Of a stretch of 64,000 bases of DNA, positions 23,018-57,140 are shown piece by piece. The stretch covers positions 1,302,001 to 1,366,000 of the forward strand of contig NZ_CP070950.1 of the NCBI RefSeq assembly GCF_017084525.1, given 5' to 3'. The notes under the pieces are model-generated. The model was given only the letters and a program-made list of their open reading frames with translations. It did not search any database and was not told where the DNA came from. The stretch's first letter is position 1. The number at the start of each line of letters is the position of its first letter. Position numbers and translations under genes: made by a program. The DNA comes from Conexibacter sp. SYSU D00693 (lineage in GTDB: Bacteria > Actinomycetota > Thermoleophilia > Solirubrobacterales > Solirubrobacteraceae).

Positions 23018-24273
23018 GGCGTCGGGCTCCCGTCCGCGCAGCTGCGGGCCGGCCGCATCGTCGGCCCGTTGCCGTTGGTGAAGTCCTCCGGGCTGAAGAC
23101 CAGCGCGCCACGCGGCGAGGTGCCGCCGGTGCTGCGTGTCCCGAACTTGAAGACCGACATCGACCAGGCGAAGAAGGCCTGGACCTCGCGCTCGCAGCGC
23201 GAGAGCTGCTGGGTGAGGCGGTCGACGCGCGGCAGCTGGGGCTCGAGGCGCGAGAACGCGGTGCGCAGCGACGAGGACGTCGGCGCGAGGTCGCGGGCCA
23301 GCGGCCGCAGCGCCGGGACGGCGGGGCCCAGCGCGCGCAGGGCCGGGTCCAGGTCGCCGGCCAGGCCCTGCAGGGCGCCGAGGCCCGACGGCAGCGCGGC
23401 CGCGACCGGCCGCAGCGCGGTGAGCGCGGGGCGCACGTCGCCGAGCGTGCCGTCGAGCCGCGCGAAGGAGGAGCGGACCTGGTCCAGCGTCTCCGGGAGG
23501 GTGCCGAGGGTCCGGTCGAGGTCGGCGCGCCGGTCGCCCAGGGTGCGGAAGGTCGAGCCCGCGTCGCGCACGAGGCGCGTCACGGCGCCGTCGCGGCGGG
23601 CGAGCTCGTCGGTGATCGCGCGCACGCGCGTGACGAGGCGACGGGTCGCGGCGTCGCGGCGGGCGATCGCGGTGCTGACCCGGTCGGCCGCCCGCACGAA
23701 CGGGACGAGCTCGGCGAAGGCCGAGCGCAGCTGCGCCCCGCCGTCGGGCAGGCCGACGGCCAGCTCGTCGAGGGCCCGCTCGAGGCGGTCGCGCACGTCG
23801 GTCGAGAAGACGTTGAGGACCTCGGCGACGTCGACCGGCGTCTGCGTGCGTCCCGCGTCGAGCACCTGCCCGTCCTCGAGCCGGCCGGCCGCCGGCGTGC
23901 CGCGGCGCACGACGTCGAGGACCATGTCGTTGAGCGCGGTCTGCGGGCGCAGGCGCAGCTGCGCGTCGCGGAACAGCGGCGGGGCCTTGCCGGTCTCGAC
24001 CTCGGCGGTGAGCACCGCGCGCTCGCCCTCGAGGTCGGCCGCGGTGATGCGCCCGACGACGACGCCCACCCACCGGACCTCGTTCTTGCCGGGCGCGACG
24101 CTCTTGGCGTCGTCGACGGCGACCCTGATCGTGGTGCGGCCCGTGAGCGGCGAGCCGCCGCTCAGCGACCCGAGCAGGACCGCGGCGCTCACCACGGCCA
24201 CGGCGATGCCCAGGGCGAGGACGACGACCGAGCGGCGCGAGCGCTGGAGCTGGAGCAGGAGCCGTCCCCTCAC
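23014..24273 (-). CDS. Mce-family protein, fifth (MceE-position) subunit, operon I
   Basis: 419 residues. N-terminal anchor helix (~12-35), MCE domain (~40-120: VDDAKSVAPGKNEV, VGVVVGRITAADL), alpha-helical needle region, then a C-terminal segment with FFAWSMSVFKFG and a two-Cys tail. In mycobacteria this position is usually a lipoprotein (LprK type); here there is no lipobox cysteine near the N-terminus. GTG start at 24273 overlaps the upstream stop. Paralog of 34303-35616. Confidence 0.9.
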   Translation of the reverse strand: MRGRLLLQLQRSRRSVVVLALGIAVAVVSAAVLLGSLSGGSPLTGRTTIRVAVDDAKSVAPGKNEVRWVGVVVGRITAADLEGERAVLTAEVETGKAPPLFRDAQLRLRPQTALNDMVLDVVRRGTPAAGRLEDGQVLDAGRTQTPVDVAEVLNVFSTDVRDRLERALDELAVGLPDGGAQLRSAFAELVPFVRAADRVSTAIARRDAATRRLVTRVRAITDELARRDGAVTRLVRDAGSTFRTLGDRRADLDRTLGTLPETLDQVRSSFARLDGTLGDVRPALTALRPVAAALPSGLGALQGLAGDLDPALRALGPAVPALRPLARDLAPTSSSLRTAFSRLEPQLPRVDRLTQQLSRCEREVQAFFAWSMSVFKFGTRSTGGTSPRGALVFSPEDFTNGNGPTMRPARSCADGSPTP

Positions 24274-38308: not shown

Positions 38309-39759
38309 GGTCCCAGGAGGAGGTCGAGGAGGCCGCCGTCGAGCGTGCGTCCGTCGTCGTGGCCACGGCCGGTCAGGTCCTTGAGCACGCCGTCGACGGC
38401 GTCGGTGACGCCCTTGAGGACCTCGCCGCCGGGCAGGCGCTGCACCGTCTCGCCGACCTTCGGCAGCAGCGGCTGCTTGACCGACGGCAGCCGCTCGACG
38501 AGGTCCTTGACGACGTCAGGGCGCCGCGCGTCGGGACGGGCCGGGGCGCGACGGTCGGGGGCGGCCGGCGCCTTGGCCTGCTCGCGCCGCTTCTCCTGGC
38601 CCTTGGTGAGCCGGTCGACCATGGTGAGCACGAGGTCGGGGCTCACCGACGCCTCCCCGCGGAAGACGTGGCCGAGGCCGTCGCGGAACTGGATCGCGCG
38701 CGACCAGTTCTCGAGGATGGCGATGATGTTGTCGGCGCTGCCGTCGAGCGTGTCGCTCACCGGCTTGAGGGACTGCGCCATGCCGGCCACCGCCTGGGCC
38801 GTCGGGCGGGCGCGGCGCAGGACGGGCGTCGCCTTGGTGGCCAGGCGCGACAGGTCGGGGCCGGCGTCCGTGGCGACGTCGAGCGTCGGCGCGGCCGCCT
38901 CGCGGAAGCCGTCGACCTCGCGCAGCGTCGCGGCCAGCGGCGGGGCGGCGGCGGCGATCTCCCGCGCGGCCGGCCCGAGGTCCTTCGTCGTGGTCTCGAG
39001 GTCACCGAGGAAGCCGCGCAGGGTGCGCAGCGTCTGCGGCGCCCGGGCGAGCGTGGTGCGCAGCTGGGCGCGACGCGCGGCGACGGTCTGCGCGGTGTCG
39101 CCGACCGTGTCCACCATCCGCGTGAGCGCGCGCCGCTCGCGGGTGACCTCGCGCACGAAGCGGCCGCTGCGGGCGAGCAGGTCGTCCATCGTGCGGTCGT
39201 CGGCGCGCAGCTGGGCGAGCACCGCCGAGGCGTCCTCGAGGCCGACCGGGAACTGCTCGAGCAGCTTGCGGATGTCGACCCGGCGACCGACGACGGCCTC
39301 GCCGGCCTCCGTGAGCAGGACCTGCGCGCGGGTGCGCGTGTCGGCGTCGAAGACCCCGAGGACCTGGTCGAGGTCCGTGGGCGTCGTGACGCGGTCGGCG
39401 GGCACCGTCGTCCCGCTGGGCACCGGGGCGCGCCGGGCGTCGCCCGGGTCCAGCTCCACCCGCTTGAGACCCAGGAAGTTGGCCGAGACGACGGCCACCG
39501 AGGCGTCGCGGCCGACGGGCCCGGCACCGTCCTCGAGCTCGAGCTCGGCGACGACGCGGTCGCCCGGCTCGAGGCGGAGGTCGACGCGACCGCGGTCGAT
39601 CCCGGCGATGCGCACGGCCGAGCCGTCCTGCAGGCCGCCGGCGTTGGTGAGCGGCACGCGCACGACGTAGCGGTCGTCGTCGCCGCCCAGGAGCACCACG
39701 GCGCCCACGGCGACGGCGACGAGGGCCAGGAGCGCGGCGGCCAGCCGCCCGGCGCTCAT
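38305..39759 (-). CDS. Mce-family protein, second (MceB-position) subunit with long C-terminal tail, operon II
   Basis: 484 residues. Anchor ~5-24, MCE domain ~32-112 (VRIAGIDRGRVDLRL; NFLGLKRVELDPG), needle helices to ~370, then a charged Lys/Arg/Ala/Pro-rich linker and the same terminal LLDLLLGP as the operon I partner. FRDGLGHVFRGEASVSPDLV is also conserved between the pair. ATGA coupling. Confidence 0.9.
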   Translation of the reverse strand: MSAGRLAAALLALVAVAVGAVVLLGGDDDRYVVRVPLTNAGGLQDGSAVRIAGIDRGRVDLRLEPGDRVVAELELEDGAGPVGRDASVAVVSANFLGLKRVELDPGDARRAPVPSGTTVPADRVTTPTDLDQVLGVFDADTRTRAQVLLTEAGEAVVGRRVDIRKLLEQFPVGLEDASAVLAQLRADDRTMDDLLARSGRFVREVTRERRALTRMVDTVGDTAQTVAARRAQLRTTLARAPQTLRTLRGFLGDLETTTKDLGPAAREIAAAAPPLAATLREVDGFREAAAPTLDVATDAGPDLSRLATKATPVLRRARPTAQAVAGMAQSLKPVSDTLDGSADNIIAILENWSRAIQFRDGLGHVFRGEASVSPDLVLTMVDRLTKGQEKRREQAKAPAAPDRRAPARPDARRPDVVKDLVERLPSVKQPLLPKVGETVQRLPGGEVLKGVTDAVDGVLKDLTGRGHDDGRTLDGGLLDLLLGP

Positions 39760-41138
39760 CGCCCGCCCTCCCGCGGGACGCGGACGATCGGGAGGAGCTT
39801 CGGGACGCTGAAGACCTGGTCGGCGGGCCGGATCTCGGGGTCCTTGTTGGGGTCCAGCGCGTCGGGGCCGGCGCCGCACTCCGGCAGGAACCAGGGCTGG
39901 CCGGCGTTCGTGCCCGGCGGCCGCGGGAAGCCGTACTCGAGCCCGGAGAACAGCTTGGCCGCCTGCGCGGCGTTGTACGGCGAGGCGTTGCTGAAGGCCG
40001 GCAGGTAGTTCTGGACCTGCGCGCGGATGAGCTTGTCCTTGCCGTCGGTGCCCGAGAAGAAGTCGCCCCAGTTCGAGAAGAAGGTGTTGATCTCCGGGGT
40101 GAACGGCCGGATGCACCGCAGCGCCTCGACGGCCTCCGCGCCGGCCGAGCGCAGCTGTGGCGCGAGGTCGGTGACGTGGTCCAGCAGCGGGTCGACGTCG
40201 GGGACGGCCCGGCGCGCGGTGGCGAGCGTGGCCGTCGCGTCCGGCCCGGCGCGGCGCACCGCGCCCAGCAGCCCGTCCAGCGGCGCGGCGGTGCGCTGGA
40301 CCTCGGCGACGCCGGGGGCGATCCGCGCGGTGACCGCCCGGGCGCGCTCGAGCGTCCCGTCGGCGTCGGCCAGCGTGCCGCGCACGGTGCGGAAGGTCGC
40401 CGGCGCCCGGTCCAGCGCCGCCTGCAGGCCGCGGGTCTCGTCGGCGATCGCGTCGAACGTCCCCGCCGCACCCTCGACGAGGGCCTTCACGCCGGGCTGC
40501 GCGTCGTCGACCGCCAGGAGCACCCGGTCGGCGGAGCGGACCATCGTGCGCAGGGCGACGTGCTCGCCGTCGAGGTCGCGCACCAGCGCGCTGGCCTCCG
40601 CGAGCGCCGGCGGGGCCTTGCGCAGCGTGGCGCGCAGGCCGGGACGGGCCCGCAGGAGCGCGGGACCCGCGCTGGCGAGCATCCGCCGCACGTCGCCGCG
40701 GACGCGCTCGGGGAAGGTCGCGAGGAGCTCGTCGAACTCGACCGGCAGGGCGAAGCGCGCGGCCGGGAACCGTCCGCCCTCCTGCACCATCGAGCCGCCG
40801 CCCCGGCCGGGCGCCAGGGCGATGTAGCGGTTGCCGAAGTTCGCGGTGCCGCCCCAGCGCAGCGTCATCCGCGAGCCGCGCGGGATCGGCCACGCCGCGT
40901 CGTCGACCTCGAGCTCCAGCCGGGCGTCGCGCCCGCCCCGGACCGGGTCGATCGACACCACGCGCCCGACCTCGGCGCCGGCCTGACGGATGAGCTGGCC
41001 CTCGACGACGTTCGTCGCCTCGGCCACGGTCACCGTGAAGCGGTGGCGCTGCTCGTCGCCGCCGCCACGCGCCAGCACCACGACGACCAGCCCGGCCGCC
41101 ACGACGGCCGCGAGGCGCAGCAGGGTCCGCGCGCCCAC
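39756..41138 (-). CDS. Mce-family protein, first (MceA-position) subunit, operon II
   Basis: 460 residues from GTG 41138. Anchor ~6-23, MCE domain ~32-115 (IRQAGAEVGRVVSI; ANFGNRYIALAPG), needle helices, and a longer C-terminal domain than its operon I partner (INTFFSNWGDFFSGTDGKDK, then an Asn/Pro-rich region). Three bases separate it from the YrbE stop. Confidence 0.9.
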   Translation of the reverse strand: MGARTLLRLAAVVAAGLVVVVLARGGGDEQRHRFTVTVAEATNVVEGQLIRQAGAEVGRVVSIDPVRGGRDARLELEVDDAAWPIPRGSRMTLRWGGTANFGNRYIALAPGRGGGSMVQEGGRFPAARFALPVEFDELLATFPERVRGDVRRMLASAGPALLRARPGLRATLRKAPPALAEASALVRDLDGEHVALRTMVRSADRVLLAVDDAQPGVKALVEGAAGTFDAIADETRGLQAALDRAPATFRTVRGTLADADGTLERARAVTARIAPGVAEVQRTAAPLDGLLGAVRRAGPDATATLATARRAVPDVDPLLDHVTDLAPQLRSAGAEAVEALRCIRPFTPEINTFFSNWGDFFSGTDGKDKLIRAQVQNYLPAFSNASPYNAAQAAKLFSGLEYGFPRPPGTNAGQPWFLPECGAGPDALDPNKDPEIRPADQVFSVPKLLPIVRVPREGGR

Positions 41139-41141: not shown

Positions 41142-41984
41142 TCAGCCGCCGATCGGGAGGTTGTTGTCGGTGCCGAACACCATGACCGCGAAGAACGCGG
41201 CGATGACGTGGAGCACCACGAGGTTGACGACCAGCGAGCGTGCCACCGACGCGCCGACGGCGGCCGGGCCGCCCGTGGTGCGCAGTCCGTAGAAGCAGGC
41301 GACCAGCGCGGTCGTCACGGCGATCGTCGTGCAGGTGACGATGACGAAGACCGTGTCGCCGAAGCCCTGCACCGCCCAGTGCAGCGACATGAGCGTGTGG
41401 CCCGAGAGGCCGTCGAGCAGGACGACGACGATGAGGTAGGCCCCGAGGACGTTGGCCATCATCGAGACGACCGCCGCCACCGGCGCGAAGAGCAGCACCC
41501 CGACCAGGCGCGTGCCGACGAGGTAGCGCTGCGGGTCCACGCCCGTGGACTCGAGCGCGTCGACCTCCTGCTGGATCTTCATCGCGCCGAGCTCGGCGGC
41601 GATGCCGCAGCAGACCTTCGCGGCGAAGACGTAGCCGAACATCGTCGCCGCCACCTGGCGCGGCCCGACGATCCCCGTCACCAGCCCGAAGAAGTCACCG
41701 GCGCCGATGCCGCGCAGCAGGAAGAAGCCGAACGTCCCGACGACGAAGCCCTGGAAGAGCTGCATGCTGAACATCAGCGGCAGCGTCCCGCGCATCATCA
41801 GGGACGCCTGGCGCATCCCCTCCGAGACGTAGGTCAGCGATCCCGGGAGCGCCCGCAGCGCCTGGCCGGCGAAGCTCGTCATCTGCCCCGCCTCGGCGAG
41901 CGTCGACGTGCGGGGGCCGACGCGCGCGGGCGGGCGCTCGGCGAGCGGCGCGGCGGCCTGCGGGTCGGGGGCGGTCGCCGCCAT
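41142..41984 (-). CDS. YrbE/MlaE-family ABC permease, second permease of mce operon II
   Basis: 280 residues. Signature AAKVCCGIAAELGAMKIQQE followed by VDALESTGVDP, about five to six helices, C-terminal LPIGG as in operon I. An N-terminal ~35-residue polar extension precedes the family start. Coupled to the first permease by TGATG. Confidence 0.93.
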   Translation of the reverse strand: MAATAPDPQAAAPLAERPPARVGPRTSTLAEAGQMTSFAGQALRALPGSLTYVSEGMRQASLMMRGTLPLMFSMQLFQGFVVGTFGFFLLRGIGAGDFFGLVTGIVGPRQVAATMFGYVFAAKVCCGIAAELGAMKIQQEVDALESTGVDPQRYLVGTRLVGVLLFAPVAAVVSMMANVLGAYLIVVVLLDGLSGHTLMSLHWAVQGFGDTVFVIVTCTTIAVTTALVACFYGLRTTGGPAAVGASVARSLVVNLVVLHVIAAFFAVMVFGTDNNLPIGG

Positions 41985-42850
41985 CAGCCGCGCAGCGCCG
42001 ACACGTCGGGGAAGACCGTGAAGTACGCGAGGTTGAAGACGACGTCGAACAGCCAGATCCCGAAGAAGGTGATGACGACGGTCTCGTTGACCGCGCGTCC
42101 CACGCCCTCGGCGCCCGGCTTGGACGCGAGGCCCTTGTAGCAGGCCACGACGCCGACGAAGAGCCCGATCAGGGCGTTCTTGAGCAGCATCGTCAGCCAG
42201 AGGTCCGACGGCTGGATGATGTTGGCCAGCGAGTCGAGGAAGACGCCGTCGGAGAAGCCGAAGTACCCCGGCGCGATGGCCCAGTTGACGACGTTGACCA
42301 TCAGCAGGCTGATGAACGCCAGCACGGGCATCGCGAGCGTCATCCCGACGACGCGCGGGACGATGAGCGCCCGCAGGCGGTCGACGCCCAGCACGGCCAT
42401 GGCGTCGAGCTCCTCGCGGATCTTGCGCGCGCCGAGGTCGGCGGTGACCGCGCTGCCCACGACGCCGGCGAAGAGCATGCCGGTGATCCAGGTCGCGATC
42501 TCGCGGCTCCAGATGATGAAGACCGTCCCGCCCTCGCGGTCGGAGACGCCGAGGTCGTCGAGGATCCCGCCGAAGAGGATGATCCCGAAGCCGATGAGGT
42601 AGACCGAGTGCGAGAGGGCCAGCGGCACGATGCAGCGCCGGTAGGCCTGGGCGACGTCGGTGACCGCCTCGCGCAGCCACGGGAACGGCGGCGTGACGGC
42701 CAGGCGCAGGACGCGCACGGCGAGCGCGCCCATCTCGCCCATCGTCCTGAGCCGCTGGCCCGGGGACGTCGCGACCGCGCCCGCGGCGAAGCCGTGCCGG
42801 TACGGGTTGCCGCCTCCTGCTGCGGCGCTGGTGGTCCTCCCTGCTCCCAT
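41984..42850 (-). CDS. YrbE/MlaE-family ABC permease, first gene of mce operon II
   Basis: 288 residues. TADLGARKIREELDAMAVLG MlaE loop and several membrane helices. GAGGG lies just before ATG 42850, and the operator unit GGACAGCATGTCC is 22 bases upstream, in the 81-base gap to the MceG-like gene. The operon could be read from its own promoter here or from the upstream ATPase operon. Confidence 0.93.
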   Translation of the reverse strand: MGAGRTTSAAAGGGNPYRHGFAAGAVATSPGQRLRTMGEMGALAVRVLRLAVTPPFPWLREAVTDVAQAYRRCIVPLALSHSVYLIGFGIILFGGILDDLGVSDREGGTVFIIWSREIATWITGMLFAGVVGSAVTADLGARKIREELDAMAVLGVDRLRALIVPRVVGMTLAMPVLAFISLLMVNVVNWAIAPGYFGFSDGVFLDSLANIIQPSDLWLTMLLKNALIGLFVGVVACYKGLASKPGAEGVGRAVNETVVITFFGIWLFDVVFNLAYFTVFPDVSALRG

Positions 42851-42931: not shown

Positions 42932-44146
42932 TCACGCGTCCATCCCCAGCGGCCCGCGCGCGGTGCCCGAGAGGAACTGGCGCACGAACGGCGTCTCGGA
43001 GGCGAAGACCGCGTCGGCGAGGCCGCTCTCGAGCACCTGCCCGCGCCAGACGATCGAGACGTGGTCGGCGATGCGGCGGGCCAGCGCGACGTCGTGGGTG
43101 ACCACGACCATCGTCCCGCCGTACTGCGCGTGCTGGTCGGCGAGCAGGTCGCCCAGCAGCGCGGTGCGCACGGGGTCCAGCCCCGAGTCGGGCTCGTCGC
43201 ACAGCACGATGCCGGGGTCCATGACCAGCGCGCGCGCCAGGCCCGCGCGCTTGCGCATGCCGCCCGAGAGCTGGTTGGGCATCCGGTGCGCGGCGCCGAG
43301 CAGGCCCACGTCGGCGAGGTGGCGCTCGACGACCTGGCGCACCTCGTCCTCGTCGAGGTCGGTGTGCTGACGCAGCGGGAAGGCGACGTTGTCGTAGACG
43401 TCCATCGCGCTGAACAGGGCGCCGTCCTGGAACATGACCCCGATCTCGCTGCGCAGGTCCAGGACCTCGGCGCGGCTCATGCGGCTCAGCGCGCGGCCCC
43501 GGATGAGGACCTCGCCGCCGTCGGGGCGCATGAGGCCGATGACGTGCTGGAGCAGGACGCTCTTGCCCGTCCCGGAGGGACCGAGCACGACGGAGACGAC
43601 GCCCGCGGGCACCTGGAGGTCCAGGCCGCTGAGCACCGTCGTCGGCCCGAACGCCTTGCGCAGGTCGCGCGTCTCGATCGCCAGCAGCGACGGGTCGAGG
43701 GGTCCCGCGGCCGTGGCCGGCGGCGGGGCCGGCCGCGTCTCCTGCGTCACCGGCGCGCCGCGCTCCTCGGCCACCGCGCGCAGGGCGGTGCGCAGCATCG
43801 GCTCCACCTCGAGCAGGCGCAGCGCCGGGCCCTCGGCCCGCACCGCGCCGGAGACCACCGCGGCGGGCAGCGCGAGGCGTCCCTCGGCGAGCCGCTCGGC
43901 CGCCGCGCCGTCGAGCTGCACCGTCACCTCGGCGGGCTCGTCGAGGACGACCGCGGGCTCGTCGCGGTCGAGCAGGAGCGTCACCGCGCGGCCGTCGCCG
44001 GCGAGGCGGAACGCGACGCTCGTCCGCGCGTGGCACAGCCGCGCGCGCAGGCCTTCGTCGGTGCGCAGCGCAGCCTCGAGCGCCCCGGCGAGCCGGTCGG
44101 CGCCCGCGACCTCGCGGCGCATGCGCTCGTCGACGGGCACCGTCAC
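42932..44146 (-). CDS. Mce ATPase (MceG/MlaF-like) with N-terminal SCP2-like domain
   Basis: 404 residues. Residues ~155-400 form an MlaF/Mkl-type ABC ATPase: Walker A GPSGTGKS (189-196), signature QLSGGMRKRAGLARALVMDP, Walker B IVLCDEPDSGLDP, switch His in VVVTHD. It should energise both YrbE permease pairs. Residues ~15-125 resemble a sterol-carrier-protein-2 fold (FRLAGDGRAVTLLLDRDEPAV then AEVTVQLDGAAAERLAEGRL and a basic C-terminal helix), joined by a Pro/Ala linker. SCP2 domains bind acyl-CoA, sterols or phospholipids, so the fusion could sense or accept substrate at the ATPase. The domain call is by eye and needs a profile search. GTG start follows immediately after the TAG of the upstream gene. 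Confidence 0.85.
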   Translation of the reverse strand: MTVPVDERMRREVAGADRLAGALEAALRTDEGLRARLCHARTSVAFRLAGDGRAVTLLLDRDEPAVVLDEPAEVTVQLDGAAAERLAEGRLALPAAVVSGAVRAEGPALRLLEVEPMLRTALRAVAEERGAPVTQETRPAPPPATAAGPLDPSLLAIETRDLRKAFGPTTVLSGLDLQVPAGVVSVVLGPSGTGKSVLLQHVIGLMRPDGGEVLIRGRALSRMSRAEVLDLRSEIGVMFQDGALFSAMDVYDNVAFPLRQHTDLDEDEVRQVVERHLADVGLLGAAHRMPNQLSGGMRKRAGLARALVMDPGIVLCDEPDSGLDPVRTALLGDLLADQHAQYGGTMVVVTHDVALARRIADHVSIVWRGQVLESGLADAVFASETPFVRQFLSGTARGPLGMDA

Positions 44147-46468
44147 CTAGGGCCGCCCTGCACCGGCCATCGCGAGGTACCGGCTCACCGCCTCCACGCG
44201 GTTGGCGGCCCCGAGCTTGCGCAGGATCCGGGCGACGTGGCCCTTCACCGTCTCGGGCGACAGGACGAGCTCCTCCGCGATCTCGCGGTTGGAGCGTCCC
44301 GCGACCATCCCGCGGAGGATGTCCCGCTCGCGGTCGCTGAGCGGTGTCTCGGTCGCCGGCGCGTCGGGCTGGCCGTCCCACGCGAAGAGGGGACGCAGGC
44401 CCGGGCCCGACGGCAGCTCGAGGGCCGCGTGCTCGAGCTCGGAGAACAGCGCCTGGGCCGAGGCCGTGAGGTGGCGCAGCTCGCTGGTGACCTCCCGCAC
44501 GCGCCGGCGCAGGAGCACCTGCTCGAGGGCGACGCCCAGGACGCCGGCGAGGTCGACGACCGACGCGTGCTCGGCGTCGGTGACCTCGGGCCCGTCGCGG
44601 TCGACGACGAGCACCGCCAGCGGCGTGCCCGACGGGCTGACGGCGCCCAGCGCGAAGGCCCGCAGTTCGAGCTCCTCCGCGAGGGTGCTCGCGGTCCACG
44701 CGCCCGTGCCGCCGCGACCCAGCGCCGCGGCTTCGACGGTGCGCGCCTGGAGGGCGACGGGCCGGGCGAGCACCTGGCGGCGCAGGCGGTCGCTCGCCGG
44801 GTCGGCCAGCGCGCCGCTGTCCTCGGCGGTGAGCCGGGTCGGGCCGACGGTCAGCACGAGCGCGCGGTCGAACCCGAGGACCTGGCGGGCGAGGTCGGCG
44901 CCCTGCGCGAAGAGGCCACGGACGTCCTCCGCCGCGCGCAGGCGGTCGAGCAGTGCCAGGAGCGGGGCGCCGGGCCCCTGCGCCGTGGCGTCCTGCTCGG
45001 CCGGCGCCGGCGCCGGCGCCGCGTCGGGCGTCGCGGAGCGCAGCGGCGTCGCCACGTCGGGGTGCTCGTCGGCCCACGCCCGCAGCGTGCGCAGGTCGGG
45101 GTCCTCGTCGACGCTCGTGGCGACCGTCGGCAGCTCGCCGGCGTACACCTCGCCGCGGCCGCCGTCGACGGTCACGACCTTGCCGCGCAGGCGGTCGACG
45201 GTGCCCGCGCCGCAGCCGACGACGCACGGACGGCCGAGCTCGCGGCTGACGACGGCGGCGTGGGAGGTGGACCCGCCCAGCTCCGTCACGATGGCCGTCG
45301 CGGCGATCATGCCGTGCACGTCGTCGGGGTCGGTCGTGGGGCGCACGAGCACGACCTCGCGCTCGTCGGCGAGGTCCTCGGCCTCCTCGGCGTCGACGGC
45401 CACGAGGCCGGACGCGACGCCGGGGCAGGCCGGCTCGCCGGAGGCCAGCAGCTCGGCGCCGGCGCGCGCCTCGGCCGGGACGTGCGGGCGCAGCAGCGCG
45501 TCGACGTCGGCCTTGCCCACCCGACCCAGGGCCTCGGCGGGCGTCAGCAGCCCCTCCTGGGCCAGGGCCACCGCGAGGCGGACGGTCGCCTCGGGCGAGC
45601 GCTTGGCGGCTCGCGTCTGCAGCAGCCACAGCCGGCCCGCCTCGACGGTGAACTCCACGTCCTGGACGTCGCGGCCGTCCTGCTCGAGGCGGCGGGCGGC
45701 GGCGAGCAGCTCCTCGAGCAGCGCGGGCTCGCGCGCGCCGAGCTCGCTGAGCGGCAGGGGGTCGTGGCGGCCCGACACGACGTCCTCGCCCTGGCCGCGC
45801 GGCAGGTACTCGCCGAAGGGCTCGGGGGCGCCGGTCAGGGGGTTGCGGCTGAACAGCACGCCGGTGCCCGACCGGTCGTCGAGGTTGCCGAAGACCATCG
45901 CCTGGACGGTGACGGCGGTGCCGCCGTCGTCCGGGAGCCCGTGGTGGCGGCGGTAGGTCTGCGCGCGCTCGGAGTGCCAGGAGGCGAAGACGGCCGCCGC
46001 GGCGTCGGCGAGCTGCTGCCACGGGTCGTCGGGCGGCGCGTGGCCGACGACCTTCGTGAACTGCTCGACGAAGCGGCGGCGGCTGTCGGCGGCGAACGCG
46101 GCGTCCCCGGTGGCCTGCGCCACGCGCTCCTGCACCGCCGGCGCGAGGCCGAGGTTCAACACGGTGTCCATCATCCCGGGCATGCTGCGCGCGGCGCCCG
46201 AGCGGACGCTCAGCAGCATGGGCACCGCGCCGCCGGCGAAGGTCCGCCCGAGCTCGCCCTCGAGCCAGGCGACGCCCTCGTGCAGCGCCTCGCGCGCGCC
46301 GTCGGGCAGCACGCCGCCGGCCGCGTGGAAGGCCGAGCACGCGGTCGTGGGCAGGCAGAAGGCGGGCGGCACCGGCAGGCCGAGCGCGCGCATGCGGTTG
46401 AGCCCCCAGGCCTTGCCGCCGAGCAGCTCGCGGCCCAGGCCGACCGTCCCGTCGAGGCGGACGAGCAC
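44147..46468 (-). CDS. PPDK-like ATP-grasp + phosphohistidine domain fused to GAF and LuxR-type HTH
   Basis: 773 residues. ~1-310: pyruvate phosphate dikinase/PEP synthase N-terminal ATP-binding domain (GGKAWGLNRM, LLSVRSGAARSMPGMMDTVL, GVLFSRNPLTG, DVEFTVEAGRLWLLQTR). ~345-445: swivelling phosphohistidine domain with His403 in TELGGSTSHAAVVSRE. There is no C-terminal PEP/pyruvate barrel. ~505-655: GAF-like sensor domain. ~708-768: LuxR-type helix-turn-helix (LSDRERDILRGMVAGRSNRE, LSPETVKGHVARILRKLGA). It could autophosphorylate from ATP and couple that state to DNA binding or pass the phosphoryl group to a partner. GTG 46468 lies five bases after the flavoprotein stop; its TAG abuts the ATPase GTG. 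Confidence 0.87.
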   Translation of the reverse strand: MLVRLDGTVGLGRELLGGKAWGLNRMRALGLPVPPAFCLPTTACSAFHAAGGVLPDGAREALHEGVAWLEGELGRTFAGGAVPMLLSVRSGAARSMPGMMDTVLNLGLAPAVQERVAQATGDAAFAADSRRRFVEQFTKVVGHAPPDDPWQQLADAAAAVFASWHSERAQTYRRHHGLPDDGGTAVTVQAMVFGNLDDRSGTGVLFSRNPLTGAPEPFGEYLPRGQGEDVVSGRHDPLPLSELGAREPALLEELLAAARRLEQDGRDVQDVEFTVEAGRLWLLQTRAAKRSPEATVRLAVALAQEGLLTPAEALGRVGKADVDALLRPHVPAEARAGAELLASGEPACPGVASGLVAVDAEEAEDLADEREVVLVRPTTDPDDVHGMIAATAIVTELGGSTSHAAVVSRELGRPCVVGCGAGTVDRLRGKVVTVDGGRGEVYAGELPTVATSVDEDPDLRTLRAWADEHPDVATPLRSATPDAAPAPAPAEQDATAQGPGAPLLALLDRLRAAEDVRGLFAQGADLARQVLGFDRALVLTVGPTRLTAEDSGALADPASDRLRRQVLARPVALQARTVEAAALGRGGTGAWTASTLAEELELRAFALGAVSPSGTPLAVLVVDRDGPEVTDAEHASVVDLAGVLGVALEQVLLRRRVREVTSELRHLTASAQALFSELEHAALELPSGPGLRPLFAWDGQPDAPATETPLSDRERDILRGMVAGRSNREIAEELVLSPETVKGHVARILRKLGAANRVEAVSRYLAMAGAGRP

Positions 46469-46473: not shown

Positions 46474-48114
46474 CTACCCCGCCGTCACCAGGCGGCGCAG
46501 GCGACGCGCCGCCCCGCTGCCCTGACCGTCGCCGGTGCGCTGCACGAACGTCCGCGCCGCCACGTAGCCGGGGATGCCGCTGATCCCGCCGGTGGGGTGC
46601 GTGCCCGCGCCGCTGATCCACAGCCCCGGGACCGGGGTCTCGTAGGCGCCGAAGCCCTGGGCCGGGCGCAGCGGGCCGAAGCGGGCCGCCGCGGGCTCCA
46701 CGTGGTAGACGTTGCCGTCAGGCACGTGGAAGCGCTCCTCGAGGTCGGAGACGTGGAAGACGCGACGCCCGACCTCCAGGCTGTCGAGGCCCTCGTAGAC
46801 CTCGGCGCAGTCGGCCAGGACGCGGTCGCCGATCGCGTCGCGCACCGCCTCCCAGGGCTCCTGCGGGTGCATCGGCGTGATGCCCGACCACAGCCAGAAC
46901 GTGTCCTGGCCCTCGGGCGCCTGGGTCGGGTCGATGGCCGAGGGCACGATCCCGATGAAGCAGATCGGATCAGGCCAGCGCCCGCCCACCGTCTCGTCCC
47001 ACGCCTGCACGTGCTCCTCGAAGGTCTGCCAGCTCACGATGGGCTTGCGCAGGTCCAGCCCGTCGTCGCGCCACGTCCGGATCTTCTCGGCGATCTCCAG
47101 CCGGCCCGAGACGGCGACGTCGATCTTCAGCGTCCCGGTCTCCAGCACGGCGGTCGGGATGCTGTCGGCCCGGCGCTGCAGGTGGTCGGGCAGCAGCCCC
47201 TTGGGCAGCATCTGCGCGAGCGTCGCCTTCGGGCTGCAGGTCGCCATGACGTGGCCCGCGCGCAGCTCCTCGCCGTCGTCGAGGACCACGCCGACGACGC
47301 GCTCGCCCTCCACGAGCAGCGTCTCGACCTTCGCCGACGTGCGGACCTGGCCGCCGAGCTCGGTGAGGCACGAGTGCAGCGCGTCGGTCAGCGCGCCCGT
47401 GCCCCCCTGGAAGCGCGTGGACCCCGTCCGGTGGCACATGCCGACGTAGATGAGCCCCCAGGCCGTGCCGTCCTGCTTCATCCAGCAGAACGGCGGCATC
47501 GACGCGAGCGCGCCGCGGACGAGCGGGTGGTCGAAGCGCTCGGTGATGAACTGCTCGTGGGAGGTCGTGAGGAACTGCGTCAGTGGCCAGAGGTCCTTGC
47601 GCCGGCGCACCGCCGTCGGCAGGGCGGCGAGCACCGTGCGCGGATCGGGCCGCGTGGGGTGGCTGAGCATGAACGGGATGGCCAGGTCCATCGCCGCGTC
47701 GAGGCTGCGCGCGAAGTCGAGGTAGGCGGCGGCGTCCTTGCGCGAGAACCGGAGCAGCTCGTCGGCGGTGCGCCGGGGGTCCTCCCAGAACGCCAGGGAG
47801 GCGCCCGTGTCCTTGTCGACGTGGACGTGGAACGGGTCGGCCGGCAGCTGGACCAGGCCGTGGCGGCGCAGCTCGAGGTCGCGCTCGATGGGCGTCGCGC
47901 GGAACAGCGAGGCCTGGATGCCGCCCTCGTTGACGAGGTGCCCGGGGGCGCCCGCGATCACCGGGTTGGTGCTGATCATCCCGCCGACGGTCGGCGAGGC
48001 CTCCAGCACCGTGACCGCCCGTCCGGCCTTGGCCAGGTAGCAGGCGGCCGTCAGCCCGTTGTGGCCGGCGCCCACCACCAGGACGTCCGGTTCGAGGCCG
48101 TTCATCTTGTACAT
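46474..48114 (-). CDS. Phytoene-dehydrogenase-like/carotenoid-oxidoreductase-family FAD enzyme
   Basis: 546 residues. VLVVGAGHNGLTAACYLAKAG FAD motif, then TVGGMISTNPVIAGAPGHLV, and a C-terminal GLWISGAGTHPTGGISGIPG FAD contact. This is the CrtI/CrtO-like branch of the flavin amine oxidase superfamily. First gene of an operon with the PPDK-GAF-LuxR and SCP2-ATPase genes. ATG 48114 (MYKMNG) is chosen; ATG 48105 is an alternative. The long divergent promoter with dyads lies upstream. Substrate is unknown, though an isoprenoid is likely for the family. Confidence 0.85.
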   Translation of the reverse strand: MYKMNGLEPDVLVVGAGHNGLTAACYLAKAGRAVTVLEASPTVGGMISTNPVIAGAPGHLVNEGGIQASLFRATPIERDLELRRHGLVQLPADPFHVHVDKDTGASLAFWEDPRRTADELLRFSRKDAAAYLDFARSLDAAMDLAIPFMLSHPTRPDPRTVLAALPTAVRRRKDLWPLTQFLTTSHEQFITERFDHPLVRGALASMPPFCWMKQDGTAWGLIYVGMCHRTGSTRFQGGTGALTDALHSCLTELGGQVRTSAKVETLLVEGERVVGVVLDDGEELRAGHVMATCSPKATLAQMLPKGLLPDHLQRRADSIPTAVLETGTLKIDVAVSGRLEIAEKIRTWRDDGLDLRKPIVSWQTFEEHVQAWDETVGGRWPDPICFIGIVPSAIDPTQAPEGQDTFWLWSGITPMHPQEPWEAVRDAIGDRVLADCAEVYEGLDSLEVGRRVFHVSDLEERFHVPDGNVYHVEPAAARFGPLRPAQGFGAYETPVPGLWISGAGTHPTGGISGIPGYVAARTFVQRTGDGQGSGAARRLRRLVTAG

Positions 48115-48125
48115 GGCTGCCGACG

Positions 48126-48151
48126 GTACACGGTGTTCGGACAGCGTGTGT
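48126..48151. promoter_or_regulatory. GGAC-N5-GTCC-like operator, tandem pair
   Basis: GTACACGGTGTTC (48126-48138) directly abuts GGACAGCGTGTGT (48139-48151), followed by a TCTTTTTTTCTC tract. It lies just upstream of the flavoprotein start. Confidence 0.6.
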
Positions 48152-48204
48152 CTTTTTTTCTCAGGCGGCGGTCCGGTGCTTGTGCCGCGGCGGTCCGGTG
48201 CGGT

Positions 48205-48230
48205 ACACATGCTGTTCGAACATGCCGTCC
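48205..48230. promoter_or_regulatory. GGAC-N5-GTCC-like operator, tandem pair over a start codon
   Basis: GAACATGCCGTCC (48218-48230) contains the ATG at 48222 and is abutted by degenerate ACACATGCTGTTC (48205-48217). The element GGCGGTCCGGTGC occurs twice just upstream (48167 and 48190 region). Confidence 0.55.
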
Positions 48231-49874
48231 CCGAACGACAGGAACCCGGTGTCCGCCGAGCCGCCCAATCCGGTGCACATGGCCACGTCCGAGCATGTGC
48301 GCTGGACCACCGTGAACTTCGCCGAGGCCATCCAGGGGGTGCAGAAGCCCCTGAGCTGGGGCATGTGGTCGCTCTCCATGGAGACCTCGGTGCGCCGGAC
48401 CTTCGGCGCGCTGGGCGTCCTCCCCGCCCGGGAGGTGCCGGTGCCGGCGAGCGCCGACGAGCGGATGAGCGGCATGTTCTTCGGGCGGGCCGCGGGCAAC
48501 ATCGAGGTCTTCCGCCGGATCGGCGACGGCATGCCGGGCAGCTCGGGCGACGTCATCGAGGAGAAGCTCTTCGGCAAGGCGCCCGTCGGCGAGCCGTCGC
48601 GCAAGCCGCTGTCGGCGCTGCGACGCTACCCCGTCGTCGCGGTCAAGCTGCCGCGCGCCGCCCGGCGGCCGCCGCGCGAGCTGCGCCCGATGCGCGCCCG
48701 GTTTCGCACGTGGTGGCAGGACGCCGTCCTCGACCACCCGCCGCGCGACCTCGCCGAGGCCCAGGCGCTGCTGCGCGCGTCGGCCGACCGCTTCATCGAG
48801 GTCGGGGTGCTGCACGCGACGACGACGCTGCTGGCCAGCGCGCTGCTGGACCAGCTCGGCGCGCTGGCCGAGAAGGCCGTCGGCGACCGGGCGCTGGCGA
48901 TGGACCTCGCGACGGGCTACGGGTCCATGGAGGAGACCGAGCTCATCGAGGACCTGTGGTCGGCCTCGCAGGGGCGCCTGGCCATCGAGGCGCTGCTGCA
49001 CCGCCACGGCTACCACGGGCCCGACGAGGGCGACCTCTCCAGCCGCACCTGGCGCGAGGACCGGGCGCCGCTCGACGCGATCCTCGCCTCCTACGCCAAG
49101 AAGGACATGGCCAACCCGCGCGAGCGCGAGGTCCAGCAGCTCGCACGCCGGCAGGAGGCCGAGGCCCGGCTGCTGGCCGGCCTCGCCGCCGCCCGGCGTC
49201 CGGCGGCCCGGCTGACCATGCGCCTGGCCGGTCGCTACATCCCGCTGCGCGAGATCGGCAAGGCCGCGTTCCTGCACGCCCTCGACGGGGCCCGCTGCGC
49301 GGCCCGCGCAGGCGGCCGCGCGCTCGCCGACGCCGGGCACCTCGACGACCCCGACGACGCGTTCTTCCTCACCTTCGACGAGTTCCTGGGCGAGCCGTCC
49401 GGCGACCTGCGCGAGCGCGTCGCCGAGCGCCGGGAGCGCCACGAGCGCTACACGCAGCTCGTCCTGCCCCCGTCGTGGACCGGCCCGCCCGTGCCCATCG
49501 AGGTCGACCCCGACGAGGGCGCCGCCGCCGACGCGCCCAGCGCGCTGCAGGGCATCGGCGTCGTGGGCCGCCGGGTCACGGGCCGTGCCCGGGTCGTCCA
49601 CGACCCCATGGACGCCGACCTCGACGACGGCGACATCCTCGTGTGCCGCACCACGGACCCGAGCTGGACGCCGCTGTTCATGCTCGCCGACGCGCTCGTG
49701 ATCGACACGGGCGGGCAGATGAGCCACGGGGCGATCGTCGCCCGGGAGCTCGGCGTGACCTGCGTCATCAACACCGTCACGGGCACGCGCGACATCCCCG
49801 ACGGCGCGACGATCACCGTCGACGGCAGCGCCGGGACGGTCGAGATCGGGACGGTCCCCCCGGTGCCCGCCTAG
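48222..49874 (+). CDS. ATP-grasp-less rifampicin-phosphotransferase-like protein with phosphohistidine domain (copy 1)
   Basis: 550 residues from ATG 48222; ATG 48279 (MATSEH) is an alternative. The N-terminal WTTVNFAEAIQGVQKPLSW corresponds to the start of the central (substrate) domain of RPH-type phosphotransferases and PEP synthases; RHGYHGPDEGDLSSRTWRED is conserved among the three paralogs here. The C-terminal ~100 residues are a swivelling domain, CRTTDPSWTPLF then TGGQMSHGAIVARE with His502 as phospho-acceptor. The ~300-residue ATP-grasp domain found in RPH is missing, so phosphate must come in trans or the reaction differs. It forms an operon with two TetR genes 15 bases downstream. 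Confidence 0.82.
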   Translation: MPSPNDRNPVSAEPPNPVHMATSEHVRWTTVNFAEAIQGVQKPLSWGMWSLSMETSVRRTFGALGVLPAREVPVPASADERMSGMFFGRAAGNIEVFRRIGDGMPGSSGDVIEEKLFGKAPVGEPSRKPLSALRRYPVVAVKLPRAARRPPRELRPMRARFRTWWQDAVLDHPPRDLAEAQALLRASADRFIEVGVLHATTTLLASALLDQLGALAEKAVGDRALAMDLATGYGSMEETELIEDLWSASQGRLAIEALLHRHGYHGPDEGDLSSRTWREDRAPLDAILASYAKKDMANPREREVQQLARRQEAEARLLAGLAAARRPAARLTMRLAGRYIPLREIGKAAFLHALDGARCAARAGGRALADAGHLDDPDDAFFLTFDEFLGEPSGDLRERVAERRERHERYTQLVLPPSWTGPPVPIEVDPDEGAAADAPSALQGIGVVGRRVTGRARVVHDPMDADLDDGDILVCRTTDPSWTPLFMLADALVIDTGGQMSHGAIVARELGVTCVINTVTGTRDIPDGATITVDGSAGTVEIGTVPPVPA

Positions 49875-50534: not shown

Positions 50535-51172
50535 GCGCGACCGACCGGCGGGCCGCGGCGCGCAGCGGTCGCCGGGCCGAGCTGGGCACGAAGCTCCTGC
50601 CCGCGGTCGAGCGGCTGCTCGCCGACGGCGCGAGCTTCACGGAGCTCAGCGTGGACGAGCTGCTGGCCGAGGCCGGCGTGGCGCGCTCGACCTTCTACAA
50701 GGCCTTCGAGGGCAAGGGCGACCTGCTCGTCGAGTGGCTGGGCCAGATCGTCGACGAGCTCGAGCAGGCCGCCGACGCGTGGTTCACGCTCGGCGGGGAC
50801 GCCCGGCGCGAGGAGCTCGCCGCGGCGCTCGCCGAGACGATGCGCGCCTACGCCCCGCACGCGGTGGTGATGAGCGCCGCGTACGAGGTGGCGCCCTTCG
50901 ACGCCGCCGTCGGGGCGGCCCTGCACGACCTGTCGACGCGCGGGGTCGCCGGGCTGCGCCAGCACCTCAAGCGCGGCCAGCGCGAGGGCTGGGTCGACGC
51001 GGCGCTCCCGGCCGACGAGACCGCGACCTTCCTCACCGCGATGGGCGAGCGCGCCTACCAGCAGCTGCGCCGGCTGGGCGCCGAGCACGACCTCGACCGG
51101 TTGCGCGCCGCGCACACGGACCTGGTCTGGCACGCCCTCTACGCGCACGCGCCGGCCCACGCCCCGGGCTAG
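50531..51172 (+). CDS. TetR-family transcriptional regulator (second of a coupled pair)
   Basis: 213 residues from GTG 50531, overlapping the preceding stop. Recognition segment AEAGVARSTFYKAFEGKGDL differs from its neighbour at the tip (KAF for VYF), so specificity may differ or the two may form heterodimers. Its ligand domain (AYAPHAVVMSAAYEVAPFDA) is similar to that of the 14329 regulator (TYRPHVTLMAATYDTAAYDV). Stop overlaps the convergent gene as CTAG. Confidence 0.92.
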   Translation: MSATDRRAAARSGRRAELGTKLLPAVERLLADGASFTELSVDELLAEAGVARSTFYKAFEGKGDLLVEWLGQIVDELEQAADAWFTLGGDARREELAAALAETMRAYAPHAVVMSAAYEVAPFDAAVGAALHDLSTRGVAGLRQHLKRGQREGWVDAALPADETATFLTAMGERAYQQLRRLGAEHDLDRLRAAHTDLVWHALYAHAPAHAPG

Positions 51173-52764
51173 GCCGGCGCGGGCTGCGCCCCCACGGCCT
51201 CGAGGACGTCGACCGTCCCCTTCGACCCGTCGACGCGGACGAGGTCGCCCGTGCGGATCGCGGCGGTCCCGGTCCGCGTGCCGGTGACGCACGGGATGCC
51301 CAGCTCCCGGGCGACGATCGCGCCGTGGCTGATCGGTCCCCCGATGTCGACGACCAGCGCCGAGGCCATGACCATCACCGAGGCCCAGCTCGGGTCCGTC
51401 GTGCGGCAGACGAGCACCTCCCCCGGCTCGAGCTCCTCGTCGCCGTCCGGGTCGACGATGAGCCGCGCGCGGCCCTCGACGACGCCGGGGCTCACGGCGA
51501 TCCCGGAGACGACCACCTCCTCGCGCGCGCCGCGGCCGTCGCCGCGCGGCCGGGGCTCCGGCTCGCCCTCCCACGACTCGGGGAGGTCGAGCTCGAGGTG
51601 GCGCTCGTGCGCCGCGCGGCGCTCGGCGGCCACCTCGCGCAGGCCCGGCGCCGGCACCGGGGCCAGCAGCTCCTCGAGCGTGAGCATGAAGACGTCCTCG
51701 GGGTCGTCGAGCACGCCGTCGGCGACGAGCTCACGCCCGAGCGCGCGAGCGGCGGTCCGTGCCACGTCCGAGCACTGCAGGAACGTCGCCTTGCCGACGC
51801 CGCGCAGCGGGATGAGGCGCCCGGCCAGGGCGAGGACGAGCCGGGCCGGCGGGCGGCGCACCGGCGCCAGCGCGCCCAGCAGCTCCTGCTCGGCGGCGCG
51901 GCGCTCGAGGGCGCGCCCGGCCTCGACCGCGCGCGGCTCGCGCTCGTCGGGCAGGTCGCGGTAGGAGGCGGCGAGCGCCTCCACCGGGTCCGGCCGCAGG
52001 CGCCACGTGCGCGCCGACAGCTCGCCCTCGTTGGGCCCGTGGAAGCCGTGGCGGCGCAGGAACGCCTCGAGCTCCAGGCGCCCGCGCGAGAGCGCCCACA
52101 TGTCGGCCACCACGTCGGTCTCGGCCATGTCGCCGTAGCCCGTGACCAGGCGGATCTCGAGGCCCGGCCGGCCCGCCCGCTCGGCCAGCGCGCGGACCTG
52201 CTCGTACAGCGACTGGCAGAGCATCGCCGCCAGCGTGTGCGGGCGCATGACCTCCTCGTGGCGCCGCGCGGCCTCGGCGAGGACGGCGCGGGCGGCGGCG
52301 GCGCTCGCGGGCGGCGCGTCGAACGTCGTGCGCTCCCACCACGGACGGATCTCCGCGGAGGCGTCGCGCAGGCGCGCGGCGACCCGGGCGACCGCGAGCG
52401 GCGCCTTGGCCGCCACCGCCGGGTAGCGGCGCCGGCTCGAGCGGTCCTCGAGCCCGGGTCGCACGGTGCCGAAGATCTGCTGCTCGATGGCGTCGGCGCT
52501 CGTGCCGGGCATGAGGTCGCCCAGCCAGCGGAAGGTGTCGAGGTTGGCCGCGGCCCGGCCGAGGAAGAGGTCCCACATCCGCTCCTCGCGCCGCTCGGGC
52601 GCCCGGACCTCGGAGGCCCTGAGCACCCCGAGGTCGCAGAACGCCCCGCGGAACGCCCGCTCGACGTTGTCGCCGAAGAAGCTCCAGGTCAGCGGCGTCA
52701 CGACGCCGGGCAGGGCCTCCCCCGCGTTGATGGTCGACCACGCCACCGGCCTCTCGCCCGTCAT
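51169..52764 (-). CDS. ATP-grasp-less rifampicin-phosphotransferase-like protein with phosphohistidine domain (copy 2)
   Basis: 531 residues. WSTINAGEALPGVVTPLTWS marks the start of the RPH-type central domain; RHGFHGPNEGELSARTWR is the shared internal motif; the C-terminal swivel has TTDPSWASVMVM and IGGPISHGAIVARELG with His480. There is no ATP-grasp region. Divergent from the TetR at 52843 across the TGAAAG-N2-CTTTCA operator, so control differs from copy 1. Confidence 0.82.
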   Translation of the reverse strand: MTGERPVAWSTINAGEALPGVVTPLTWSFFGDNVERAFRGAFCDLGVLRASEVRAPERREERMWDLFLGRAAANLDTFRWLGDLMPGTSADAIEQQIFGTVRPGLEDRSSRRRYPAVAAKAPLAVARVAARLRDASAEIRPWWERTTFDAPPASAAAARAVLAEAARRHEEVMRPHTLAAMLCQSLYEQVRALAERAGRPGLEIRLVTGYGDMAETDVVADMWALSRGRLELEAFLRRHGFHGPNEGELSARTWRLRPDPVEALAASYRDLPDEREPRAVEAGRALERRAAEQELLGALAPVRRPPARLVLALAGRLIPLRGVGKATFLQCSDVARTAARALGRELVADGVLDDPEDVFMLTLEELLAPVPAPGLREVAAERRAAHERHLELDLPESWEGEPEPRPRGDGRGAREEVVVSGIAVSPGVVEGRARLIVDPDGDEELEPGEVLVCRTTDPSWASVMVMASALVVDIGGPISHGAIVARELGIPCVTGTRTGTAAIRTGDLVRVDGSKGTVDVLEAVGAQPAPA

Positions 52765-55499: not shown

Positions 55500-55535
55500 T
55501 GAAAGGACTTTCAACTTCTCCTGAAAGGGCTTTCA
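55500..55535. promoter_or_regulatory. Two TGAAAG-N2-CTTTCA operators
   Basis: TGAAAGGACTTTCA (55500-55513) and TGAAAGGGCTTTCA (55522-55535), 22 bases apart. They lie upstream of the AveC-like operon; the second overlaps the last codon and stop of phosphohistidine copy 3. Confidence 0.72.
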
Positions 55536-57140
55536 GACCCGGGCGAGGACCTCGACCGTCCCGGCCGTCCCGTCGACGCGCACGCGGTCGCCGGTGGCCA
55601 GGACGCTCGTCCCGTTGCCCGTCCCCACCACGCACGGGACGCCGAGCTCGCGGGCGACGACCGCGGCGTGGCTCAGCGCCCCGCCGAGGTCGACGACGAG
55701 CGCGCTGGAGACGAACATGATCGACGACCAGCTCGGGTCCGTCGTGCGCGCGACGAGCACCTCGTCGGGCTCCACGTCCTCGAAGCTCGGGTCGGTCACC
55801 ACCCGCGCGACGCCCTCGACCACCCCCGCGCTGACCCCGGTGCCCCGCACGACGCCGGACCCGCCGTCCGCCCCGCCCCCGGCCCCGGGCGCCGCCACCG
55901 GCACGAGCTCGGGCAGGCCGGCCCACGACGACGACGCCGGCTCCACGCGCTGGTGGGCCGCGCGCCGCTGGCGGCGGTGCTCGACCACCTCGCGCACGCC
56001 GTCGGGCAGGGCGCCGCAGAGCTCCTCGCCGGTGAGCAGGAAGACGTCGTCCGCCGCGGCCAGCACGCCGTCGGCCTCCAGCAGCGCGCCCGCCCGCCGC
56101 GCCGCCGCGCGGCCGGCGTCGACCGCCTGCAGGAACGAGCGCTTGGCCACCCCGCGCAACGGCAGCCGGGCGGCCGCGAGGCGCAGGAGCAGGGCCGCTG
56201 CCGGGCGCCGGCGGCGCGGCAGCGCGGCGAGCACCTCGGCCTGCGCCGCCGCCAGGCGCTCGCGCGCCCCGGCCTCGCCGGCCAGCGGGCTCTGGGCCTC
56301 GTCCCGGGCGGCGTAGCGCGCGACCATGGTGTGCAGGGGCGCCGGGTCCTCGCGCCAGACGCGGCTGGAGACCTCGCCCTCGTCGGGACCGTGGAAGCCG
56401 TGGCGCGCGACCACGTCGGCGACCTCGAGCTCGCCGCGCGACGCGCGCCAGATGTCGGCGACGACCGCCATCTCCGCGCCCCCGGTGCCGCTCAGCACGG
56501 CGAGGTCGCCCACCCCGGCGTCCTGCACGAGGGCGTCGAGCGCGTCGAACAGCGGCCGGATGCTGGAGAGCGTGCCCACGAGCTGCACGTGCCCGGCGCG
56601 CTCGAAGCGCGCGACGGCCTGCGCGAACAGCGCGCGGGCACCCGCGAGGTCGAGGGCGGGGGCCCGGGCCACCGCGTCGCGCCACCAGCGGTCCTGCTCG
56701 GGCGCCAGCGCGCGCAGGAGCCCCGGGAAGCGCGCGAAGGTCGTGGGCAGGCGGACGGCGATCGCGGGGTAGCGGGCGCGGGTGGGCGCGAAGGCCATGC
56801 CGGGCGGGACGGCCCCGAACATGCTGCGGATCGCCTCGGCCCCCGTCGTCCCGGGCAGGCGGTCGCCGACCAGCGCCATGAACTCGAGCTGCATCGTCAG
56901 GCGACCGTGGAACGGCCGCAGGACCCAGTCGGCGGGGTCGGCCGGCGGCGCCAGCTCGTCCCGGCGCAGCACGCCGATCTCGTGGGCCGCCCGGCGCGCC
57001 GCGCGCTCGCCCGTCGGTCCCCAGAGCGACCAGCACAGCGGTGTCATGACGCCCGGCACGGCCTCGCCGAGGTTCGTGGTCGTCCAGTGGTGGACGGCCC
57101 GCTCCGACGGCATCAGCGGGTCGGGCGGTGCGGAGCTCAC
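55533..57140 (-). CDS. ATP-grasp-less rifampicin-phosphotransferase-like protein with phosphohistidine domain (copy 3)
   Basis: 535 residues from GTG 57140. WTTTNLGEAVPGVMTPLCWS start, internal RHGFHGPDEGEVSSRVWRED, and C-terminal TTDPSWSSIMFV and LGGALSHAAVVARELG with His491. A Gly-rich linker (~430-440) joins the body to the swivel domain. No ATP-grasp domain. Second gene of an operon with the lipocalin-like gene (GTGA overlap), under the dyad at 58101-58138. Confidence 0.82.
   Translation of the reverse strand: MSSAPPDPLMPSERAVHHWTTTNLGEAVPGVMTPLCWSLWGPTGERAARRAAHEIGVLRRDELAPPADPADWVLRPFHGRLTMQLEFMALVGDRLPGTTGAEAIRSMFGAVPPGMAFAPTRARYPAIAVRLPTTFARFPGLLRALAPEQDRWWRDAVARAPALDLAGARALFAQAVARFERAGHVQLVGTLSSIRPLFDALDALVQDAGVGDLAVLSGTGGAEMAVVADIWRASRGELEVADVVARHGFHGPDEGEVSSRVWREDPAPLHTMVARYAARDEAQSPLAGEAGARERLAAAQAEVLAALPRRRRPAAALLLRLAAARLPLRGVAKRSFLQAVDAGRAAARRAGALLEADGVLAAADDVFLLTGEELCGALPDGVREVVEHRRQRRAAHQRVEPASSSWAGLPELVPVAAPGAGGGADGGSGVVRGTGVSAGVVEGVARVVTDPSFEDVEPDEVLVARTTDPSWSSIMFVSSALVVDLGGALSHAAVVARELGVPCVVGTGNGTSVLATGDRVRVDGTAGTVEVLARV

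Follow-up and report, generated by a model that had tools for sequence, protein, structure and literature searches.

Rv1127c of Mycobacterium tuberculosis is a truncated pyruvate phosphate dikinase (PPDK) that was renamed VadK in a 2026 paper (PMC13400623). According to that paper, VadK is a non-canonical histidine kinase that undergoes ATP- and Mg-dependent autophosphorylation on His422, abolished in a His422Ala mutant, and its downstream route is described as unsettled; in the same text, deletion of vadK left transcription of the methylcitrate cycle unchanged, with 49 other genes moved. To raise the solubility of VadK, its operonic partner Rv1126c was expressed with it, and washing with 2 M NaCl served to separate them, which together suggest that VadK and Rv1126c form a complex. 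A second described arrangement, in PMC12167813, is that of HpeHI, with ATP-grasp and swivel domains residing on separate subunits.

The window analysed here, a stretch of 64,000 nucleotides from Conexibacter sp. SYSU D00693, encodes a VadK-type module in frame with a DNA-binding regulator. Positions 44147..46468 of the minus strand form one uninterrupted open reading frame of 773 codons, with a GTG start at 46468 that lies 5 nt past the stop codon of a FAD oxidoreductase gene, and with its 3′ side abutting an ABC ATPase gene. The encoded protein consists of the ATP-grasp part of the VadK module (residues 1–325, 45494..46468; Pfam PPDK_N and alignment with the PPDK structure 1kbl), a phosphohistidine swivel domain (residues 332–455, 45104..45475; PEP-utilizers match over residues 370–439, and PPDK alignment), an Ala/Pro-rich junction linker visible in the sequence (residues 484–503, 44960..45019), a predicted GAF domain (residues about 515–658, 44495..44926), a long helix that overlaps the end of the GAF domain and continues toward the DNA-binding domain (residues 631–680, 44429..44578; helix 141–190 of the structural model), and a LuxR/GerE helix-turn-helix (HTH; residues 709–762, 44183..44344; Pfam GerE), all on the minus strand. 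We regard this anatomy as secure with high confidence; an earlier note made from the sequence had proposed just such a single protein of ATP-grasp and swivel, GAF and LuxR HTH domains, and the open reading frame, profile searches and structural model agree with it.

Searches with the whole fusion protein match Pfam PPDK_N with 132.5 bits in three stretches and PEP-utilizers with 84.8 bits, with the short PPDK family NF004531 matching residues 2–483 at 709.9 bits (cut-off 456). The full-length PPDK family TIGR01828 scores 459.5 bits, below its cut-off of 843.45, and the match stops at model position 540 of 865; by this profile match, the PEP/pyruvate-binding barrel of full-length PPDK is absent from the fusion. 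Sensing of PEP state, one of the earlier proposals for this protein, is therefore unsupported, and we rule it out. The description of the kinase half as a truncated PPDK is right as to the missing barrel, but its family is the short PPDK of the VadK (Rv1127c) type and not merely a broken PPDK. His403 (codon 45260..45262, minus strand) is the equivalent of PPDK His455 and aligns with the catalytic histidine of Clostridium symbiosum PPDK in the 1kbl alignment. Conservation of His403 and of the ATP-grasp residues, left by the earlier note as a point to check, extends to every position compared with PPDK (K19, R89, E220, E228, D229, D270, E272, Q284, R286, T401, and H403), a list that we take to comprise the functional positions of that enzyme. 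NF004531 also matches two other loci, L193 (913.1 bits) and L194 (886 bits); the His422Ala primer given in PMC13400623 agrees with the motif GGAASHAAVVSREL that these loci carry, from which we infer that Rv1127c is itself of the NF004531 type. By analogy with VadK, the fusion would autophosphorylate in an ATP- and Mg-dependent manner. The window VadK groups with actinobacterial VadKs in our tree, with its nearest relative in Nocardia veterana (support 91/92), a placement that is not decisive for origin.

The C-terminal half gives a Pfam GerE match of 68.1 bits over fusion residues 709–762. Pfam GAF has no match on the whole fusion and reaches E=0.0043, below cut-off, on the C-terminal piece; this model also appears in 7 of the 18 members of the GAF-LuxR family. 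An AlphaFold2 model of residues 491–773, built on 18 sequences (mean pLDDT 87.3, pTM 0.63), suggests that the region before the HTH adopts a GAF fold, with GAF-B of DevS (2vjw) as its best VIA match (Z 14.0, 124 residues, 2.1 Å). Stand-alone homologues of this half usually accompany mce genes. Apart from the fusion, 17 proteins of the 146 family genomes match at 100 bits or more, and among the 16 examined, 12 have MlaE/Mce genes within 3 kb, two have only a related ABC ATPase alongside, one has MlaE at 5.1 kb, and one has none; none of four weaker relatives has mce-type neighbours. In the window, the ABC ATPase gene abuts the fusion and MlaE lies within 1.3 kb. The same genome carries a second GAF-LuxR gene, stand-alone, that heads another mce operon about 8 kb before the window (L164:8460-9371; G000:C1:1293483-1294400). 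In genome G117, GAF-LuxR and an RPH-like gene stand head to tail beside an mce operon (L243:47-2617), with no VadK on the 8.2-kb contig.

The operon that holds the fusion begins with a CrtO/CrtI-like FAD oxidoreductase (FADox; 46474..48210, Pfam/NCBIfam; true start probably near 48114), which is syntenic in genome G113. Downstream of the fusion follow an mce-type ABC ATPase (42932..44146; Pfam and NCBIfam, best NCBIfam match MlaF, with a weak N-terminal SCP2 match), an MlaE permease (41984..42850; Pfam MlaE, 159.3 bits), a second MlaE-type permease of uncertain start (41142..41990; match to the second MlaE-type gene of other mce loci), and the first of the operon's Mce-type genes (39756..41138), presumptively named from a position after two permeases that is kept in other mce loci, with more downstream, all on the minus strand. 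As further ORFs resembling Mce-type proteins of other mce loci occupy 23014-26887 and 32927-37010, the window contains an unusually long run of mce-type genes. Upstream, a putative divergent promoter region (48115..48278) separates the FADox-fusion-mce operon from RPH_A (48180..49874, plus strand; start likely near 48279), and includes the palindrome TGTTCGAACA at 48213-48222, a candidate operator. Scans of this region recovered only short or imperfect repeats, and the promoter scan found no sigma-70-like sites.

The operon of G113 has the same order, FADox, GAF-LuxR, ABC ATPase, MlaE, MlaE, and Mce, at 57–74% identity (FADox 71%, ABC 68%, MlaE 74 and 73%, first Mce 66%), with the regulator standing alone in its slot. 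Further shared genes are X326 (76%), DUF7064 (73%), X308 (69%), and TetR3 (63%). VadK, RPH_A, RPH_B, TetR1, and TetR2 are absent at this syntenic locus; RPH-like genes have no match in the G113 genome at E ≤ 1e-30, and its matches to the VadK half fall within longer frames of 867–1064 residues. Genomes G119 and G118 carry VadK beside p204, a small protein considered below, and a relative of RPH_B (64 and 61% identical). Set beside the mce operon of G113, which is without VadK, RPH_A, and RPH_B, and these VadK neighbourhoods, the window appears to unite an mce locus and a VadK/RPH cluster, with the difference from G113 reflecting either gain in the window or loss in G113.

No second copy of the fusion was found in overlapping sets of 146 genomes from the family, 399 from the class, and 396 from the phylum (the latter two searched at E ≤ 1e-86), or in the 13 matching records of 72,556 plasmid records. 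The ORFs of the 80 best among 586 related loci gave none either, the sole long extension on a VadK there being p204 in L015. A fusion conserved across these sets is thereby ruled out. The titles and abstracts listed by searches of openly licensed PMC papers describe no comparable fusion. The earlier note had held that homologues always encoded as two proteins would count against the fusion; the halves are indeed separate and non-adjacent in every other genome examined, whilst in the window genome they are fused, and the fusion thus rests on one genome. Its occurrence in no second genome is what a sequencing or assembly error joining two genes would produce, but we think such an error very improbable, with the host genome being a single contig and the gene placed within an otherwise syntenic operon. 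The frameshift or assembly split that the note had named as a risk was looked for, and the frame is open, with GC3 of 0.95–1.00 in all full 40-codon blocks and coding composition continuous over the junction. Moreover, residues 472–538 contain no ATG, GTG, or TTG codon, so the GAF-LuxR half has no start of its own at its natural N-terminus. We judge the fusion to be genuine, rare, and lineage-specific.

A genuine fusion could still be incidental, arising from loss of a stop codon between adjacent genes and leaving two independent halves with no signal between them. Its singleton status in the family, class, and phylum genomes, the flexible Ala/Pro linker, and the divergence of the GAF-LuxR half, which is 46% identical to its syntenic G113 counterpart compared with 57–76% for the neighbouring genes, are all compatible with this explanation; that divergence fits either adaptation or relaxed constraint. 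Functional residues are nevertheless kept in both halves, which counts against decay, although not against independence, and we consider an incidental fusion unlikely.

VadK elsewhere has a usual partner, though not one known to be essential. In all 24 of the other VadK loci, the 200-residue protein p204 is encoded on the same strand within 400 bases of VadK, and its gene is absent from the window; the window genome retains one copy (G000:C1:1378020-1378598, 237.4 bits) at a distance of about 30 kb. Strong p204 matches (at least 230 bits) among the 146 family genomes are confined to the five VadK genomes and G058, an occurrence of 5/5 against 1/141 of the others (Fisher p=1.2e-8, relatedness ignored). 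Pfam matches to p204 are weak; its predicted structure comprises a MarR-type winged helix and a helical part (mean pLDDT 95.3), with Z of about 12.4 and 1.0–1.3 Å over 71–72 residues, and its operon position suggests that it is Rv1126c-like. On the strength of the model, VadK–p204 pairs may be DNA-binding systems. Examples of p204 with the predicted winged helix are L149:4627-5238 and L263:1489-2091 (alignment A2). A second and different fusion of VadK to a predicted DNA-binding protein occurs in Nocardia uniformis, where a single open frame spans VadK and p204 (L015:8001-10103). We also considered the fused LuxR domain as a substitute for the winged-helix partner and ruled this out, p204 still being encoded in the window genome; as p204 is kept there, the VadK module probably retains a VadK role.

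These counts exclude four short PPDK-like proteins (L159, L160, L163, and L273) that score higher against TIGR01828 than against NF004531, one of which (L159) has p204, with none in the segments covered of the other three. The L163 protein (L163:553-2475, genome G119) has 641 residues and fits the full-length PPDK model better than the VadK one, with no p204 on its contig. Assignment to VadK is by similarity alone for L150, L151, L011, L013, L017, L018, L031, L176, and L267-L269; L014 and L156, apparently the same contig, were counted once. Genes at the loci were called with a crude caller, which serves the lower-GC locus L013 poorly.

The reading we prefer is that the fusion is a VadK-type histidine autokinase placed in frame with the GAF-LuxR regulator of its mce operon, such that phospho-charge controls the regulator, and we give it a probability of roughly 0.4. 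In favour of the kinase half controlling the regulator half are the fusion itself, its operon position, and the intact residues. Like VadK with its His422, the ATP-grasp domain would use ATP to charge His403. As this histidine was charged, or passed its phosphate on to partner proteins, the swivel domain would change position and so alter how the GAF-LuxR half dimerises or binds DNA; the GAF domain would supply a second input, probably a small molecule. The output would be transcription of the FADox-fusion-mce operon, and perhaps also of the divergent RPH_A unit, giving a one-protein phospho-switch through which uptake of a lipid-like substrate would follow the state of ATP or of the pathway. 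In support, both halves are complete and each comes from a separately conserved family, with the regulator alone occupying the corresponding slot in G113. Against it, the fusion is known from one genome, which lowers the weight of this reading. LuxR HTH proteins of the response-regulator type take phosphate on a receiver Asp, and Pfam finds no receiver domain in the fusion. The unchanged methylcitrate-cycle transcription in the M. tuberculosis vadK deletion (PMC13400623) also counts against it.

A different role for the kinase module is suggested by the RPH-like proteins, which account for three of the five PEP-utilizer domains of the genome, all within the window and all lacking an ATP-grasp domain. 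RPH_A has a swivel His (Pfam/NCBIfam and residue mapping); RPH_B (51169..52764, minus strand; Pfam and comparison) is 64% identical to the RPH-like protein beside VadK in L149; RPH_C (55533..57131, minus strand; domain and locus comparison) adjoins X326, a position taken by an APH-family kinase in L249 and L166. That the fusion donates phosphate to these three enzymes is plausible. In its full form, this explanation makes the VadK module their ATP-grasp component, the three RPH-like proteins phosphorylating an imported alcohol and the LuxR fusion only coupling supply to the operon. The genome has just two PPDK_N loci, the fusion and a PEP-synthase-like frame of 808 residues, and the earlier statement that the fusion is the only ATP-grasp protein in the window holds for the PPDK_N type, to which its scope is limited. 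The association of the window's VadK clade with RPH-like genes is real: with RPH_A and RPH_B as the informative queries, such a gene lies in the locus of five of the six clade members (the window counted) compared with one of 19 other VadK loci, 13 of which are in the tree. Across the 146 family genomes, RPH-like genes are found in 4/5 VadK genomes compared with 2/141 others (Fisher p=4.1e-6, relatedness ignored). The window adds VadK, RPH_A, RPH_B, and two TetR genes relative to G113, and where the window has RPH_C, G113 has an APH-family kinase between X326 and DUF7064 (L249:13637-14749), possibly a non-orthologous swap of the phosphorylating enzyme. Relatives of this kinase are found near GAF-LuxR in L166, L244, L246, and L248, with none in the window; this would fit a pathway whose imported molecule receives its phosphate from APH-type kinases in some genomes and from RPH-like dikinases in the window. 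Two-component dikinases such as HpeHI, CreHI, and PpsAB offer a precedent for the donor role (PMC12167813).

The same source sets the fusion apart from those enzymes: the HpeHI-type ATP-grasp subunit, HpeI, has no swivel and the phenolic dikinases are PEP-synthase-like, whereas the fusion has its own His403 swivel and a PPDK-type ATP site. Furthermore, L011 and most VadK loci have no RPH-like neighbours, and obligate pairing of VadK with RPH-like proteins is argued against by genome G130 (95% complete), which has RPH-like genes and no PPDK_N match. The RPH-like genes of G130 lie at L258 (G130:C86). On balance, a purely donor role is somewhat doubtful. A variant combining phosphotransfer with regulation, by analogy with the logic of the sugar PTS, would have phosphate pass from ATP to His403 and on to the RPH-like enzymes when their imported substrate is available. 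How far His403 is charged at steady state would then report substrate supply, and the attached GAF-LuxR half would convert that charge directly into transcription of the import operon. This we think quite improbable, although if true the sensor would be a transcription factor whose input is a histidine kinase derived from PPDK.

That nature has joined a VadK module to a DNA-binding regulator suggests that this class of kinase can be wired to transcription, and the predicted MarR-like winged helix of p204 points in the same direction for ordinary VadK systems. Through the fusion, energy or metabolic state may feed directly into gene control. RPH-like dikinases and mce lipid import also come together at this locus, where other genomes have an APH-family kinase.

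Compared with known systems, the fusion shares with VadK/Rv1127c the ATP-grasp domain and swivel His, the lack of a PEP barrel, all mapped ATP-site residues, and the catalytic motif GG-x-x-SHAAVVSREL, but VadK is a separate protein adjoining Rv1126c, whereas the window protein is fused to GAF-LuxR and its p204 partner is encoded some 30 kb away. With HpeHI, CreHI, and PpsAB, the window cluster has in common RPH-like substrate/swivel proteins without ATP-grasp in the same gene cluster, the candidate ATP-grasp protein here differing in being PPDK-type, with its own swivel and a DNA-binding half. The GAF-LuxR regulators of mce operons (an unnamed family, alignment A4) share its predicted GAF fold, long helix, GerE HTH, and position, and are elsewhere stand-alone proteins without a kinase module. 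Finally, the fusion resembles canonical two-component systems in tying histidine autokinase logic to a LuxR-type output domain; unlike them, it has no HisKA, HATPase, or receiver match in Pfam, and its phosphohistidine would be of the PPDK type.
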